DNA of 64,000 nt, taken from positions 64,289-128,288 of the forward strand of contig NZ_LMPT01000024.1 in NCBI RefSeq assembly GCF_001424425.1, in the 5' to 3' direction. The translations under genes were made by a program, and so were the position numbers. Positions 35,241-42,598 of this stretch are shown in pieces. Each line of letters opens with the position of its first letter. The first letter of the stretch is position 1. The stretch comes from Acidovorax sp. Leaf191. GTDB taxonomy: Bacteria > Pseudomonadota > Gammaproteobacteria > Burkholderiales > Burkholderiaceae_C. The notes below the pieces were generated by a model. The model was given only the letters and a program-made list of their open reading frames with translations, was not told where the DNA came from and did no database searches.

Positions 35241-35325
<85 letters not shown>

Positions 35326-35690: not shown

Positions 35691-35775
<85 letters not shown>

Positions 35776-36499: not shown

Positions 36500-39289
36500 T
36501 TACTTGCGCAGCAGCGTCTTGAGCACCGTCTGCAGGCGGCGCGCACTGCCAGCGTCGCTGGGGCTGGCCAGCACGCGGGCGGCGTCCTGCCCCCAGGTTT
36601 GTGCGGGTGCTGGGTCGTTGCGGCGGGTGAGCAATTGCAGCTGCAGCATGCGCCGCGCCGCGATGTGCTCGGCGGGCGTGGGTGCTTCGGCCGCCATCTC
36701 CAGGCGCAGCAGCGCCTCGCCCGCATCGCCTTGGGGTGCCGACGATACGGCCTGCGTCCAGGCGCTGCGCACGGATGCGGTCACGCCGGAGCCCAGCTCC
36801 TGGGTGCTGGGCACCAGGGCTGCGTCACGCTTTTCCCAAGCCGTCATCAACTGGGTCAGCGCCTCGCCATGGGCTTGTGCCGCCAGCTTCTTCAGGGCCT
36901 GCTGCGCATGCTCCACGGCATCACGCTGGGCGCGGAAGGCCGTATCACCCAGGCGGGGGCCACGGTCTTCGTACGCCGGGCGGTCGCCAAAGCGGCCACC
37001 ACGGTCGCCACGCTCTGCACCGCCGAAGCGGCCATCGCCGCGCGGGGCGCCACGGCCTGCATCGCGGTCACCCGGGCGGCCGTCGCGGCGGTCGCCAGGA
37101 CGTGCGCCGCGGCCGGGGGCTGCGGGCGCGTCCTTCTTCATGCCGGGGCGGTCGTCGCCGCGCACCGCCACCACGGGGCGTGCGGGCTTGGGCGGCGCTG
37201 CAGGGGCAGGGGCCGGCGCAGCAGCTTCTGCGGCTTCGCCTTCTGCCGACGCTTCGCCATCCGATCCAGATTCAGCAGCAGCAGCCGCCGCCGGCTCTGC
37301 AGATTCCGCCGGCGCGGCAGCGGCATTGCCTTCGGCCTTCGCAGCCGCAGTGGCCGCCTCGGCAGCCTGGGCCTGGCCGCGCAGGGCGGCTTCGAGGGCT
37401 TGCAACGCAGAGCGGATCTGCTGCGCATCACCTGTCGCGTTCGCGGCTTCCAGGGCCTTGGAGGCTTCCAGCACCACGCGGTCACGGGCGCTCAGCTCAG
37501 TCACCGAGCGTTCACGGTCCGCCGTCTTGCGGTTGAAGGCTTCATCGATGGGCTTGCGGAACGCATCCCACAGTTTTTGTTCGTGCTTGCGGTCCAGCGG
37601 CACGGTCTGCGCCTCGGCCTGCCAGCGTTGCTGCAGCGCCTTGACGGCGTCGATGCGCAGCGCGGGGGCAGCACCCAGGGCCGTGGCTTCGTCGATCATG
37701 GCGTGGCGGCGGGCCAGGCTGTCCTTTTGCGCAGCCTCGAGCGGAGCTGCAGCGGCAGAGATCGCCTGCTTCCACAGGGGCTGCAGTTCGGCAAACAGCT
37801 TCTCGCCCACATGGCCGCCTTCGCGCCAGCGGTCGCCGAACTGATGGAGGGCGCGGTTGATCGCCTTCCAGTCGCCGGAGGTGGCGTGCTCCGCCGCCCA
37901 GGCCTTGACCTCTTCGATCAATGCCAGGCGCTGGGCCTTGTGCTCTGCGGCTTCCGAGCGGATCTTGTCCAGCCAGGCCTCGACCACCTTGTGCGCGGCG
38001 TTGCAGGCTTCGTCGAACTTCTTCCACAGCGCGTGGTTGGGCGCACCACCCTGGTCGGCCTGCTTCCACTGCTCGCGCAGGGTGCGCAGGGTTTCCTGCA
38101 TCTTGCGGCCGCCCAGGGCCTGGCCCTCGGGGCGGTTGAGCAGCGCTTCGGCCTTGGCCACCAGGTCTTCACGGACCTGGTCGGCGCTCCATCGCTGCCA
38201 GCCTTCCAGCTCGCCCGCAGCCACCAGGGCCGTGTGGACCTGTTGTTCCAGCGCGTTGTCGATGTGCTTGCCATGCACCTTGAGCACAGCACGCAGTGCG
38301 GCGGCAGCACCGGCACTGGCCTTGCCATGGCCTTCGGCGGTTTCTTTCTCGAGGGTGGCCAGCGCGGTACGCACGGTGTCGGCGGCCTTCTCGACGACCT
38401 CGGGCGCGACCTTGGGCTTGGCGGCACGGGCGGGCTTGGCAGCGGCTGCTGCAGCAGCGGCGGCCGCAGCCGCCTCCGTGGGCAGGCCACGCGCAGCGCG
38501 CAGCTCATCAGCCCACACCGGCACGGGCGGCAGCGGGGCGTTGGTGTCATCCGATGCGGCAACGGCCTGGGCCAGGGCCGGCTGGAACGCCTCCCACACC
38601 ACCAGCAGCTGCGTGCGCGATGCATCGAGCAGCGGCGGGAAGCGCGCCTCCACGCTGGCCCAGCTCGCGTCGCCGGTCAGCTCCTGCGCCTGCTCCTGCC
38701 AGCGGGCCACATCGGCACGCAGCAGTTCCAGCGCCGCCTGCGCGTCGCGCCAGGGCTTGGTGGACAGCACTTCGATGCGCTGGGCCAGCAGCACGGCGGC
38801 CTCGCGCTGCACCTGCACGCGGTGCTGCAGGTCTTCGATCACCTTCACGCGGTCGGCCACCTGCACCTTGAGCAGCGACAGCGGCTCGCGCGACAGCGGC
38901 GCGCCCGCCTTGGCGGCATCGCGCTGCCATGCCAGCGCATCGGCGATGTTGAGCTTGGGTGCGGACAGCAGGGCCTGGGCCTTCTCGGCCCACTCGGCCG
39001 CGATGACCTCCTGGCCCTTGGCGCGGCGGATCTCGTCCAGGCGCTCGCGCACGGCACGTGCCGCACCCTTGTCGCGCCCGCTCAGCTCCTTGAAGACCTC
39101 CTGCAGCTGCTCGGGTGCGGGCTGCGTGGCCAGCCAGTCACGGATGCGGGAAGCGCGCTCGCCAGACGTGGCGGCCGAAAAAGCGCCGCCGGTCAGCGCA
39201 TCCAGCGGATGGGGCTCATGGGTTTTGGCCGGAGCCGGATTCACGTCAGGTGCGTCGGACATTTTGCTGCGAGAAAAAAATGGAAACAT
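36500..39289 (-). CDS. Large DUF349-repeat protein with an Arg-Gly-rich segment
   Basis: 929-residue predicted cytosolic protein. The first 630 residues are helical and contain several repeats of the DUF349 type (charged helical units with spaced Trp, such as RTLREQWKQADQGG and ALQQRWQAEAQTV). Residues about 640-720 are Ala/Glu-rich low complexity. About 725-790 is rich in Arg and Gly (GDRRDGRPGDRDAGRGAPRG), the kind of composition seen in RNA-binding tails. A helical C-terminal domain follows. Function unknown; the family is often associated with chromosome or ribosome factors only by guess. The start MFPFFSRSK is chosen; MSDAPDVNPAP nine codons later is possible. A leftward promoter is seen near 39523-39551. 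Confidence 0.8.
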   Translation of the reverse strand: MFPFFSRSKMSDAPDVNPAPAKTHEPHPLDALTGGAFSAATSGERASRIRDWLATQPAPEQLQEVFKELSGRDKGAARAVRERLDEIRRAKGQEVIAAEWAEKAQALLSAPKLNIADALAWQRDAAKAGAPLSREPLSLLKVQVADRVKVIEDLQHRVQVQREAAVLLAQRIEVLSTKPWRDAQAALELLRADVARWQEQAQELTGDASWASVEARFPPLLDASRTQLLVVWEAFQPALAQAVAASDDTNAPLPPVPVWADELRAARGLPTEAAAAAAAAAAAAKPARAAKPKVAPEVVEKAADTVRTALATLEKETAEGHGKASAGAAAALRAVLKVHGKHIDNALEQQVHTALVAAGELEGWQRWSADQVREDLVAKAEALLNRPEGQALGGRKMQETLRTLREQWKQADQGGAPNHALWKKFDEACNAAHKVVEAWLDKIRSEAAEHKAQRLALIEEVKAWAAEHATSGDWKAINRALHQFGDRWREGGHVGEKLFAELQPLWKQAISAAAAPLEAAQKDSLARRHAMIDEATALGAAPALRIDAVKALQQRWQAEAQTVPLDRKHEQKLWDAFRKPIDEAFNRKTADRERSVTELSARDRVVLEASKALEAANATGDAQQIRSALQALEAALRGQAQAAEAATAAAKAEGNAAAAPAESAEPAAAAAAESGSDGEASAEGEAAEAAAPAPAPAAPPKPARPVVAVRGDDRPGMKKDAPAAPGRGARPGDRRDGRPGDRDAGRGAPRGDGRFGGAERGDRGGRFGDRPAYEDRGPRLGDTAFRAQRDAVEHAQQALKKLAAQAHGEALTQLMTAWEKRDAALVPSTQELGSGVTASVRSAWTQAVSSAPQGDAGEALLRLEMAAEAPTPAEHIAARRMLQLQLLTRRNDPAPAQTWGQDAARVLASPSDAGSARRLQTVLKTLLRK

Positions 39290-39522
39290 GGATCCAATGG
39301 ATAACAAAGGCGTCTTCTGGCGCACTGCCAAAAGGACCTGCCACGGCCGCCGCACTGCAAGGCGAGCCAAGGCAACAAAGGGGCTATTTTCACCGGGTTC
39401 TGGGTTGGGGCCGTTGCGGGCACCGCGCCAAGCCCGGGGATGTGATCTGGCACAAGGCCTGGGCGTGCCGGACTCGCCGCGCGCCTTGTGGGAAGCCTGT
39501 GCGCCACAGAGAGACAAGCCCC

Positions 39523-39551
39523 ATTATCTATATATAGACGCCAATGCCCAA
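39523..39551 (-). promoter_or_regulatory. Candidate promoter for the DUF349 gene or a leftward RNA
   Basis: On the minus strand TTGGGC is followed after 17 bp by GATAAT, with an AT-rich spacer TATATATA. Transcription would begin near 39515 and give a leader of about 225 nt before the DUF349 start. The spacing is ideal and the -10 strong. Confidence 0.5.
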
Positions 39552-39929
39552 TTGCAAAGGGCACAGCACCAACAAGAAAGCCCGGCAGACAGTGCCTGAA
39601 GGCCTGCCTGCCGGGCTTGACGGCTGACACAACGGTCTTTGCCATCGGTCGCAATGCGGAGATGAAGGTCCGCAAGGCGCGGAGGCAAGGTATTGCCTCC
39701 AAGGGGTGCCGTGGAAGCTGGGTCTGCTGCACCGTGGCACTGAATGCCCTCGGCGGGAGACTTCGCTTCGTCTGGCGATGCCTGAAAACTACAGGCAACT
39801 GCACCTTACCAAAGTTGCACCGCGAACTCAAACACCATTCTCAATGATGCAATCGGGGCCGATTGAATTTGACATCGGCTTGTAACAAGGCATTGCTCCC
39901 GACCGACCACCGTCCTGCCAAAAAGCGCC

Positions 39930-39956
39930 AAAAACTGTGATTTCTTACAGTTTTTT
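39930..39956. terminator. A/T-rich hairpin with T-run
   Basis: AAAAACTGT and ACAGTTTTT pair around GATTTCTT and are followed by TTT on the plus strand. It could end a rightward RNA from the structured region; the mirror reading works leftward too. The stem is AT-rich and therefore weak. Confidence 0.5.
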
Positions 39957-39992
39957 CATGACTTATCAATCTAACAAAGCTTTTTCTTAGTA

Positions 39993-40022
39993 TTGACTAT
40001 GCATTTAGTGAACTTCTAGAAT
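39993..40022 (+). promoter_or_regulatory. Sigma-70 promoter for the lytic transglycosylase gene
   Basis: TTGACT and TAGAAT separated by 18 bp, both close to consensus, in an AT-rich stretch. The transcript would have a leader of about 200 nt before the start codon at 40229, which contains the GACT tandem repeat. Confidence 0.7.
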
Positions 40023-40228
40023 CCGCCAGCCCCAAAAACAGGGCTAGTAAAAACCCCAACCCGCTGCCGAACCCGGCTAAGTCGAACCAGGGCACAGGGC
40101 ACGTTCCCCACCGTGCTGCCCGAATCGATGGCGTACCAATCCAGGCGACTGCCGGGAAAGGCGCAGGGCTCAGTCACTGACTGACTGACTGTCCCGCCTG
40201 TCCTGCTGCGCTTCAGAAAGGAAGAGCT

Positions 40229-41071
40229 ATGACAGCGTCAGGAAAGTTAGTCTCCGGCGTAAGGACCTTCGTGTCCGACGTGACCGAAGGCTTCGTTGAA
40301 ATCACCCACAACAGCTTCGCCCTCATCGGCCTGGCTGTGGCCTTCGTGGTCATCACCCTCACGGCCCGGCCCGACCTGCGCCAGGCGGGCGAAGAGCAGC
40401 TCATGAACTGGCTGCAGGCGCGCCAGGTCGAAGTGGTCGGCATGCCCATCGAGCCCGAGGCGAGCGAGCGCGCCACCGCAAGCAACCCCAAGGACCTGCC
40501 CAAGGAGCAGGCCGCCGTCGCCTTCTGGCTGAGCAAGAAGTACCGCGTGGCGCCCGAACCGCTGGCCGTGCTGGTGGCCGAGGCCTACGACATCGGCCAC
40601 CGCGCCAAGATCGACCCCACGCTGATCCTGGCCATCATGGCCATCGAGTCGAGCTTCAATCCGTTTGCGCAAAGCGCAGTGGGTGCCCAGGGCCTGATGC
40701 AGGTGATGACCAACATCCACACCGACAAGTACCAGAACTTCGGCGGCCACTTTGCCGCGTTCGACCCGGTGAGCAATCTGCGGGTGGGCGTGAAGGTGCT
40801 GCAGGAATGCATCGCCCGCGCCGGCTCGGTGGAAGGCGGACTGCGTTTTTACGTAGGCGCCGCCAACCTGGCCGATGACGGCGGCTATGCCGCCAAGGTG
40901 ATGGCCGAGCACTTTCGCCTGCGCCAGGTCGCCGGTGGCCGCGCGGTGCCCACCACGCCGCCGATGCTCTCGACCCAGGCCCCCGTGCAGATGGTGCCCG
41001 CAGCCAACTCGCCTGCCACGCCCGCTCCCGCCCCCAGTGCCGACAAGGTGGCACTGCTCTCCGACCTCTGA
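40229..41071 (+). CDS. Membrane-anchored lytic transglycosylase (SLT domain)
   Basis: 280-residue peptidoglycan-cleaving enzyme. One membrane segment at about 30-50 (FALIGLAVAFVVITLTA) anchors it to the inner membrane. The SLT goose-lysozyme-like domain covers about 110-230, with the catalytic Glu in ILAIMAIESSFNPFAQSAVG and the motif GAQGLMQVM; the later AANLADDGGYAAKVM fits the C-terminal half. The tail is Pro/Ala-rich. AGGAAGAG is a good ribosome-binding site. It has its own promoter and long leader and stands alone before the glyA riboswitch. Confidence 0.9.
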   Translation: MTASGKLVSGVRTFVSDVTEGFVEITHNSFALIGLAVAFVVITLTARPDLRQAGEEQLMNWLQARQVEVVGMPIEPEASERATASNPKDLPKEQAAVAFWLSKKYRVAPEPLAVLVAEAYDIGHRAKIDPTLILAIMAIESSFNPFAQSAVGAQGLMQVMTNIHTDKYQNFGGHFAAFDPVSNLRVGVKVLQECIARAGSVEGGLRFYVGAANLADDGGYAAKVMAEHFRLRQVAGGRAVPTTPPMLSTQAPVQMVPAANSPATPAPAPSADKVALLSDL

Positions 41072-41173
41072 CCCCTGGTGCGGCCGCCCCTGCTGGCGGC
41101 CCATGCCGTGCCAGGCAACCCCACCCGCATCGGACACATCCTGCGCGCGCCGGCTCAGCTACACTAGCGGGGT

Positions 41174-41312
41174 ACGCAACTGGCGATAGGCGCAGCTCCT
41201 GCACAGGACTGCCGCTGACGTGGAAACCGACAAGGGCTGGCCTCTTGTGAACCACTGGGGAGCGTGCCGCACGGGTGTCATGCCCGCCGCGTTCAGCCGT
41301 TCGCCTGGGCAG
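41174..41312 (+). promoter_or_regulatory. ZTP riboswitch (pfl motif) upstream of glyA
   Basis: The conserved blocks of the pfl/ZTP aptamer appear in order: GCAACTGGCG, then GTGGAAACC, then ACCACTGGGGAGCG, and finally CCGTTCGCCTGGGCA, which forms the pseudoknot half. ZTP accumulates when 10-formyl-tetrahydrofolate is short; the riboswitch then turns on one-carbon genes such as glyA. A hairpin CCCTTG-TTT-CAAGGG at 41313-41327 with the alternative pair CTTGT/ACAAG just before the AGGA of glyA may be the expression platform, suggesting control of translation start. TACACT at 41160 is a possible -10. Confidence 0.85.
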
Positions 41313-41353
41313 CCCTTGTTTCAAGGGACACAAGTTCATAGGACTGCCAAAAA

Positions 41354-42598
<1,245 letters not shown>

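Follow-up and report, generated by a model that had tools for sequence, protein, structure and literature searches.

A predicted structured RNA gene beside a conserved lytic transglycosylase gene leader in Acidovorax and other Comamonadaceae

What does a long bacterial spacer hold when it carries no convincing gene? The question arises in a 64,000-nt stretch of the Acidovorax sp. Leaf191 genome (hereafter the window), where positions 39263-40228 separate a DUF349 gene on the minus strand (36500-39262; PF03993, E 1.7e-14) from an SLT-domain gene on the plus strand (40229-41071; PF01464, E 3e-16), whose product is called a lytic transglycosylase on the basis of that domain. The original prediction, made from the sequence of the window, held that the spacer contains no gene, that it is more structured than a spacer needs to be, and that it may encode one or more functional RNAs. 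The first point is borne out by inspection of the open reading frames between 39263 and 40228, all of which are mechanical, and comparison with relatives strongly supports the last, pointing to an RNA gene on the minus strand, which we call RNA-1, and a partly structured leader on the plus strand, RNA-2. Taken as a whole, the predicted elements were confirmed in part and their interpretation was supported in part. Elsewhere in the window, two copies of tRNA-Leu(CAG) lie 450 bp apart at 35241-35325 and 35691-35775.

A search of 60 genomes found the spacer in 36, namely in our own and in all 35 congeners, and in none of the 24 genomes of other families. Thirty-four of these 36 congeneric genomes, our own being counted among the 36, could be aligned; one was left out for want of a DUF349 anchor (G035) and one because its match spanned 48 bases (G012). 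The alignment shows a first block at about 39571-39850 that is rich in invariant positions and that a stretch of low conservation separates from a second one at about 39988-40148. For the minus strand of 39566-39800 the folding energy is -118.1 kcal/mol, with a z-score of -7.38, so that the structure noticed originally does exceed chance, and the RNAalifold consensus of the 34 congeners comprises 63 pairs. In this consensus 97.3% of the pair cells hold, compared with 32-41% when the partners are slid, a control that is biased in favour of the fold because the structure was derived from the same alignment. For that reason we regard the pairs in which both sides have changed as the stronger point: 15 were observed against 5.7 in shuffles, and none of 500 shuffles reached as many. 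Structural conservation in relatives, the lack of which had been named beforehand as the outcome that would speak against the prediction, was thus found.

Read along the minus strand, the first block starts at a promoter-like site and ends in the hairpin at 39578-39618, followed by CUUUCUUGUU. Within it we place RNA-1 at 39571-39797, a predicted non-coding RNA gene of about 227 nt that is delimited by the block kept in the 34 congeners, the fold z-score, the covariation and the covariance model described below; its 5' end is a predicted one, 6-7 nt past the -10 box, and its 3' end was set at the T-run after the terminator. From 5' to 3', the RNA would begin with a terminal hairpin, GCCUG...CAGGC (39780-39796), which is 100% paired in the 34 congeners with no both-sided changes, and continue with a branched domain (39708-39776) made of a GCC...GGC closing stem, an internal stem with six pairs changed on both sides in the congeners, and a GGCAUUCAGUGCC hairpin. 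Next comes the hairpin GGAGGCAA-UACC-UUGCCUCC (39681-39700), which had been pointed out originally as a perfect 8-bp hairpin and is present as such; it is 99.7% paired, with three pairs changed on both sides, in a family set of 37 sequences. The variable hairpin at 39655-39674 has three both-sided pairs in the congeners and, in the family set, both-sided change in four of five pairs with 72.4% of cells paired. The most conserved hairpin, GAYGGC...GCCGUC (39619-39646), has an outer helix that is paired in 37 of 37 sequences and in which five of six pairs are invariant, the inner pair being A-U in 24, G-C in seven and G-U in six. It is followed by the predicted intrinsic terminator (39578-39618), originally described as an inverted repeat and indeed present with 15-nt arms that are 93% complementary. 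Its helix is 98.5% paired in the 34 congeners, with four pairs changed on both sides. The tail at 39571-39579 is U-rich and interrupted by C and G, and a simple terminator scan did not call this hairpin. Across the region covered by the family set, both-sided change is seen in nine pairs, compared with 6.1 in shuffles, and in 59 cells, compared with 21.7.

The predicted RNA-1 promoter (39803-39832, minus strand) consists of a -35 box TTTGAG (39827-39832), an 18-nt spacer and an extended -10 box TGG-TAAGGT (39803-39811); TAAGGT is exact in 31 and TTTGA in 27 of the 34 congeners. Close to the -35 box on its upstream side, a position suited to an activator, lies CAAT-N16-ATTG (39842-39865), a candidate regulator site with one half-site exact in all 34 congeners and the other in 33. 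This arrangement occurs in 36 of 74 family upstream regions (74 loci entered the count, the other 40 of 114 being without an anchor), compared with a mean of 0.3 in simple shuffles, and 16 alternative spacings of CAAT and ATTG occur zero to eight times each in the same regions. A promoter matrix trained on its own matches is descriptive only. The picture drawn originally for this part of the spacer differed in several respects. An operator-like repeat had been proposed at 39850-39865, the left half of which is exact in one of 34 congeners, the conserved partner of its other half-site lying 16 bp away. The suggestion of a leftward transcript ending at the 39578 hairpin agrees with the predicted end of RNA-1; the promoter assigned to that transcript, TTGATA-16-TAAGAA, has hexamers that are exact in just three and two of 34 congeners. 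The attenuator leader MVFEFAVQLW that it would have carried does not hold up either: six of 34 congeners keep the frame intact, the promoter proposed for it is not conserved, and the ten codons overlap the conserved RNA-1 promoter, from which they would therefore not be transcribed. The terminator-like hairpin at 39930-39955 does exist, with 9 bp, but its arms are exact in only nine and two of 34 congeners. A scan of the spacer gave two promoter-like sites against 0.4 in shuffles.

How far does RNA-1 extend beyond the genus? A BLAST search with RNA-1 found it in 52 of 299 genomes of a Comamonadaceae sample. A covariance model of its 3' half, R1, which was built from the 37 sequences of the family set (12 genus members plus 25 of the 26 loci from other genera), matched 117 of the 299 genomes and 61 of 141 genera, at a single place per genome; in the 182 genomes without a match, the effect of strict filters is indistinguishable from true absence. 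Among 300 genomes of the order, R1 matched seven, of which six are family members (our own included) and one, at 25.9 bits, belongs to another family. The SLT gene, which played no part in finding the R1 loci, lies divergently beside RNA-1 at 105 of the 117 family loci (101 of the 114 first checked plus four fetched later). We set aside four of the five weakest matches as likely false (G425 from the order search, and G093, G108 and G263), which score 25.0-33.0 bits and have no SLT gene in the flank, and retained the remaining one (G083, 28.9 bits), which has the gene; 114 family loci are left, 105 of them with SLT, as against 105 of 117 without this removal. Of the 12 SLT-less loci among the 117, nine score better (L204, L208, L211, L216, L217, L219, L220, L223 and L238), with no SLT gene within about 1.5 kb. 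In five of these nine (G098, G120, G308, G231 and G343) the SLT gene and its leader are on a contig other than that of RNA-1, and in G068 an SLT gene is about 2.8 kb from RNA-1 on the same contig.

The 5' part of RNA-1 can be followed less far. A model of the 5' domain built from genus sequences alone, R3, was applied to 100 of the 110 non-genus loci and matched 15 of them at E<0.01, each time directly before the R1 match and in the same direction, and nowhere else at that threshold; it misses the other 85, the 5' part being too diverged for this model further out. A scan of named GTDB genomes for the pattern of the core gave 83 stretches. The 80 of these that were listed all score at least 75.8 bits with R1, as is to be expected of a pattern taken from the core, and they are assigned to Acidovorax, Paracidovorax, Paenacidovorax, Rhodoferax, Ramlibacter, Curvibacter, Hydrogenophaga, Comamonas, Polaromonas, Diaphorobacter, Simplicispira, Alicycliphilus, Xylophilus, Giesbergeria and Hylemonella, genera that we take to be Comamonadaceae, or are labelled Burkholderiales, Burkholderiaceae, Comamonadaceae, Proteobacteria/Pseudomonadota and once Gammaproteobacteria. 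Comparison between genomes supports the existence, fold and spread of the gene, its single place per genome, and its most probable strand and ends.

What might such an RNA do? The reading that we favour, with somewhat better than even confidence, is that a structured RNA gene stands by itself on the minus strand of 39571-39797 and that its product would most likely be a trans-acting regulatory RNA. RNA polymerase would start just past the extended -10 box (39803-39811), probably controlled by a regulator bound to the CAAT-N16-ATTG site (39842-39865), and would stop at the terminator at 39578-39618; the product would most likely act in trans, stabilised by its 5' hairpin and its terminator and assisted by Hfq or ProQ. 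Transcription, the regulator, action in trans and any partner protein are what we infer. The genome has an Hfq gene (PF17209, 101.4 bits) and a ProQ gene, so that an RNA pairing with the help of either protein is possible. The most invariant parts of RNA-1, however, are paired and not free, which is unusual for a pairing seed and counts against pairing in trans. The near-invariant helical core speaks instead for a protein-binding or scaffold RNA, in the manner of 6S RNA, that would be recognised through the GAYGGC/GCCGUC hairpin stacked on the terminator, and we consider this the main rival, possible although distinctly less probable. It would account for a most conserved stretch that is helical and near-invariant in both arms, for the dense structure and for the single, stable location in each genome. 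Against it, RNA-1 has no Rfam match and does not correspond to either of two known kinds of RNA. 6S RNA (RF00013) is a structured stand-alone RNA of about 200 nt; there is no RF00013 match at this locus, and a candidate 6S RNA is found elsewhere in the genome (C19:518198-518377), at 42.9 bits just under the Rfam cut-off of 46.4. Sponges of the CsrB/RsmY type are stand-alone RNAs with hairpins; RNA-1 contains only two GGA, and no PF02599 match to csrA was found in this one genome, whereas three of 14 control genomes were positive, which makes a CsrA sponge unlikely.

The remaining explanations of the first block fare much worse. One is that it is a short mRNA for a small protein, which might also act as an RNA. 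In 27 of the 34 congeners one sense frame does run the whole length of the aligned block without a stop, and the longest open stretches per species are 61-81 codons in sense and 41-80 in antisense. However, the blocks vary in length from 232 to 243 nt by differences that are not multiples of three, in the open frame it is the third codon position that varies least (0.118 against 0.142 and 0.150), the reverse of what coding produces, and the changes in the stems are compensatory; we regard a protein product as very improbable. Equally hard to sustain is a DNA-level element or a plus-strand RNA with no minus-strand transcript, although the plus strand also beats its shuffles (z -4.58) and both-sided change occurs in 12 pairs of its own consensus fold, a pattern that the stems of an RNA gene read backwards would produce. 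We had also considered the ratio of G-U to A-C cells as proof of the strand, and dropped it, since G-U is in excess whichever strand is folded (172 to 15 in the fold of the minus strand, 96 to 21 in that of the plus strand). With this ratio indecisive and both strands folding and covarying, our assignment relies on three features together: the hairpin with a T-run at the left edge and the promoter-like right edge, both on the minus strand only, and the consensus energy, which for the same alignment is lower for the minus strand (-71.2 kcal/mol) than for the plus strand (-50.4). Least likely of all is that RNA-1 is a leader or attenuator of the DUF349 gene: the RNA does point toward this downstream gene and ends about 300 bp short of it in Acidovorax, but past the terminator the gene has a -10-like box of its own (ATTATC, 39523-39528, exact in 33 of 34 congeners), it was found in the flank of RNA-1 at 27 of 114 loci, a lower bound with flanks of about 1.5 kb and four weak matches included, in G120, G308 and G231 it stays next to the SLT gene with RNA-1 on a different contig, and the ten-codon frame meant to serve as the attenuator peptide fails as described above.

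As those three genomes show, RNA-1 can part from both neighbours. DUF349 was dropped as a partner gene because it is the SLT gene that remains adjacent to RNA-1. The DUF349 -10 region had been noted originally as part of a leftward promoter; at 39550-39523, TGGGCA/GATAAT scores as promoter-like and its -10 box is the one just mentioned, while its -35 box is exact in six of 34 congeners. Two stretches here are strongly conserved in the aligned congeners, the -10 region CATTATCTATATATAGA at 39513-39536 and a patch TTTTCACCGGGTTC at 39380-39400 in the 250-nt DUF349 leader, and together they may form a third regulatory element.

The second conserved block belongs to the SLT gene. Its predicted promoter on the plus strand, TTGACT-18-TAGAAT (39993-40022), was recognised originally and scores as promoter-like, with TTGACT exact in 31 and TAGAAT in 34 of the 34 congeners, and similar boxes recur across the family sample (among the leaders listed, 29 of 101). 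The predicted leader, RNA-2 (40023-40148), was delimited by conservation, covariation and a covariance model, R2; it has a 5' hairpin followed by a proposed three-way junction (40062-40133) in which CGCUG (40062-40066) pairs with UGGCG (40129-40133), enclosing a CCG-AACC-CGG hairpin (40067-40076) and a variable stem. RNAalifold alone gave the first of these helices, the other two having been added by hand before counting, and the three are paired in 92.6%, 94.6% and 67.5% of cells. The CGCUG/UGGCG helix has U-A and G-C variants among 43 leaders, and the outer pair of the variable stem (columns 74-127) is A-U in 22, G-C in 13 and G-U in four. For the leader sets, 29 of the 105 loci failed the promoter pattern, and of the other 76, 31 are not in set A4 and two more (L233 and L255) are not in set A5.

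The controls for RNA-2 were mixed. Overall, pairing holds in 81.4% of its cells (74.3 in shuffles), and both-sided change affects 61 cells (29.3 in shuffles); the pairs with both-sided change number eight against 6.8, hardly above the shuffles, 76 of 500 of which were as high. A slide by one column even gives nine pairs and 52 cells with both-sided change, yet leaves only 36.1% paired. The leader of our own genome folds with a z-score of -2.09, and eight of 200 shuffles did as well. In view of these results we describe the leader as clearly conserved and its fold as moderately supported. R2 matched 103 of the 299 family genomes and 57 of 141 genera at a single place per genome, the weakest matches, at 25-31 bits, being provisional; in our own genome it matched in one place, with no second convincing copy. 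With three R1 matches set aside, 84 genomes have both R1 and R2, 30 have R1 only and 19 have R2 only. The leader would most likely control the SLT gene in cis, through a ligand, a protein or its folding, and separately from RNA-1. A conserved structured leader upstream of a gene is a hallmark of riboswitches that RNA-2 shares, with moderate covariation and one weak control. Duplexes between RNA-1 and the SLT leader were no better than with shuffled leaders (mean z -0.14, none of 40 below -2) in a crude test on 40 of the 76 genomes that used full-length energies and ignored accessibility.

We also entertain, as a speculative and rather doubtful idea, that the two elements form a back-to-back pair of unreported RNA families, in which a single-copy structured RNA of Comamonadaceae, served by a protein partner of its own or regulating globally, stands beside a new riboswitch-like SLT leader whose three-way junction senses a metabolite or stress. 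If this were true, such a leader would connect cell-wall turnover to a new RNA signal. On the far side of the SLT gene, before glyA and then nrdR, the window contains a ZMP/ZTP riboswitch (RF01750; 41166-41317, plus strand; 44.4 bits against a gathering score of 39); this element, upstream of glyA, is likewise cis-regulatory and is distinct from the SLT leader, from which it is separated by more than 1 kb.

Is either RNA already known? Rfam 15 was scanned, as the original prediction had proposed, with cmscan over 38000-42000 (to E 1) and over 39240-40260 (to E 10). Within the spacer no family attained its gathering score, neither for RNA-1 nor for the SLT leader, and the matches that appear at lax thresholds, for example to microRNA families, are all far under their gathering scores. 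Among described RNAs, S17 of Bordetella pertussis is, in the available excerpts of its report, an intergenic 190-nt primary transcript with an intrinsic terminator and an invariant core in many Burkholderiales (PMC11722255). According to such excerpts, both S17 and the bdhR1 "toxic sRNAs" of Burkholderia (RF02278) resemble RNA-1 in being intergenic with an intrinsic terminator, but S17 sits between a glycosyltransferase gene and coq7 whereas RNA-1 adjoins the SLT gene, and in this comparison of descriptions location together with the lack of an Rfam match sets RNA-1 apart. For RNA-2, the YjbJ motif (WRC-39-1) is a weak candidate riboswitch that precedes the same kind of gene, predicted to encode a lytic transglycosylase, although the excerpts report it from Streptococcus only and the comparison is one of descriptions (PMC11109978). 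That 50-genome survey otherwise makes no mention, in the excerpts, of the genera or genes of our locus, nor do the excerpts of a 26-genome RNA survey (PMC8632094) and of a Burkholderia sRNA paper (PMC3521395) mention the locus genera and genes sought there. The Bordetella sRNAs and repeat element in the excerpts of a further paper lie at loci other than that of RNA-1 (PMC3110155). Burkholderiales-1, a candidate motif from the same order, is given without an Rfam number in the part of its source available (Weinberg 2010, PMC2864571); compared here by name, it may be the same as RNA-1 or as the leader, or as neither. Searches of open-licence PMC articles turned up no description of either RNA and none of a family-wide Comamonadaceae RNA. 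As far as Rfam 15 and the literature searched go, RNA-1 is therefore very probably a real, unannotated RNA and a new RNA family.

As to its kind, RNA-1 belongs with the structured small RNAs of bacteria, and it has a second conserved element, the leader, beside it. Members of the Comamonadaceae commonly live in soil, sludge and fresh water and on plants, and an RNA so well kept in fold, place and promoter likely matters to the cell. With the alignments and covariance models, RNA-1 can be looked for in existing RNA-seq data, so that its expression, partner and targets become directly testable, and the leader of the transglycosylase gene is another candidate that could be screened for a ligand or a protein.
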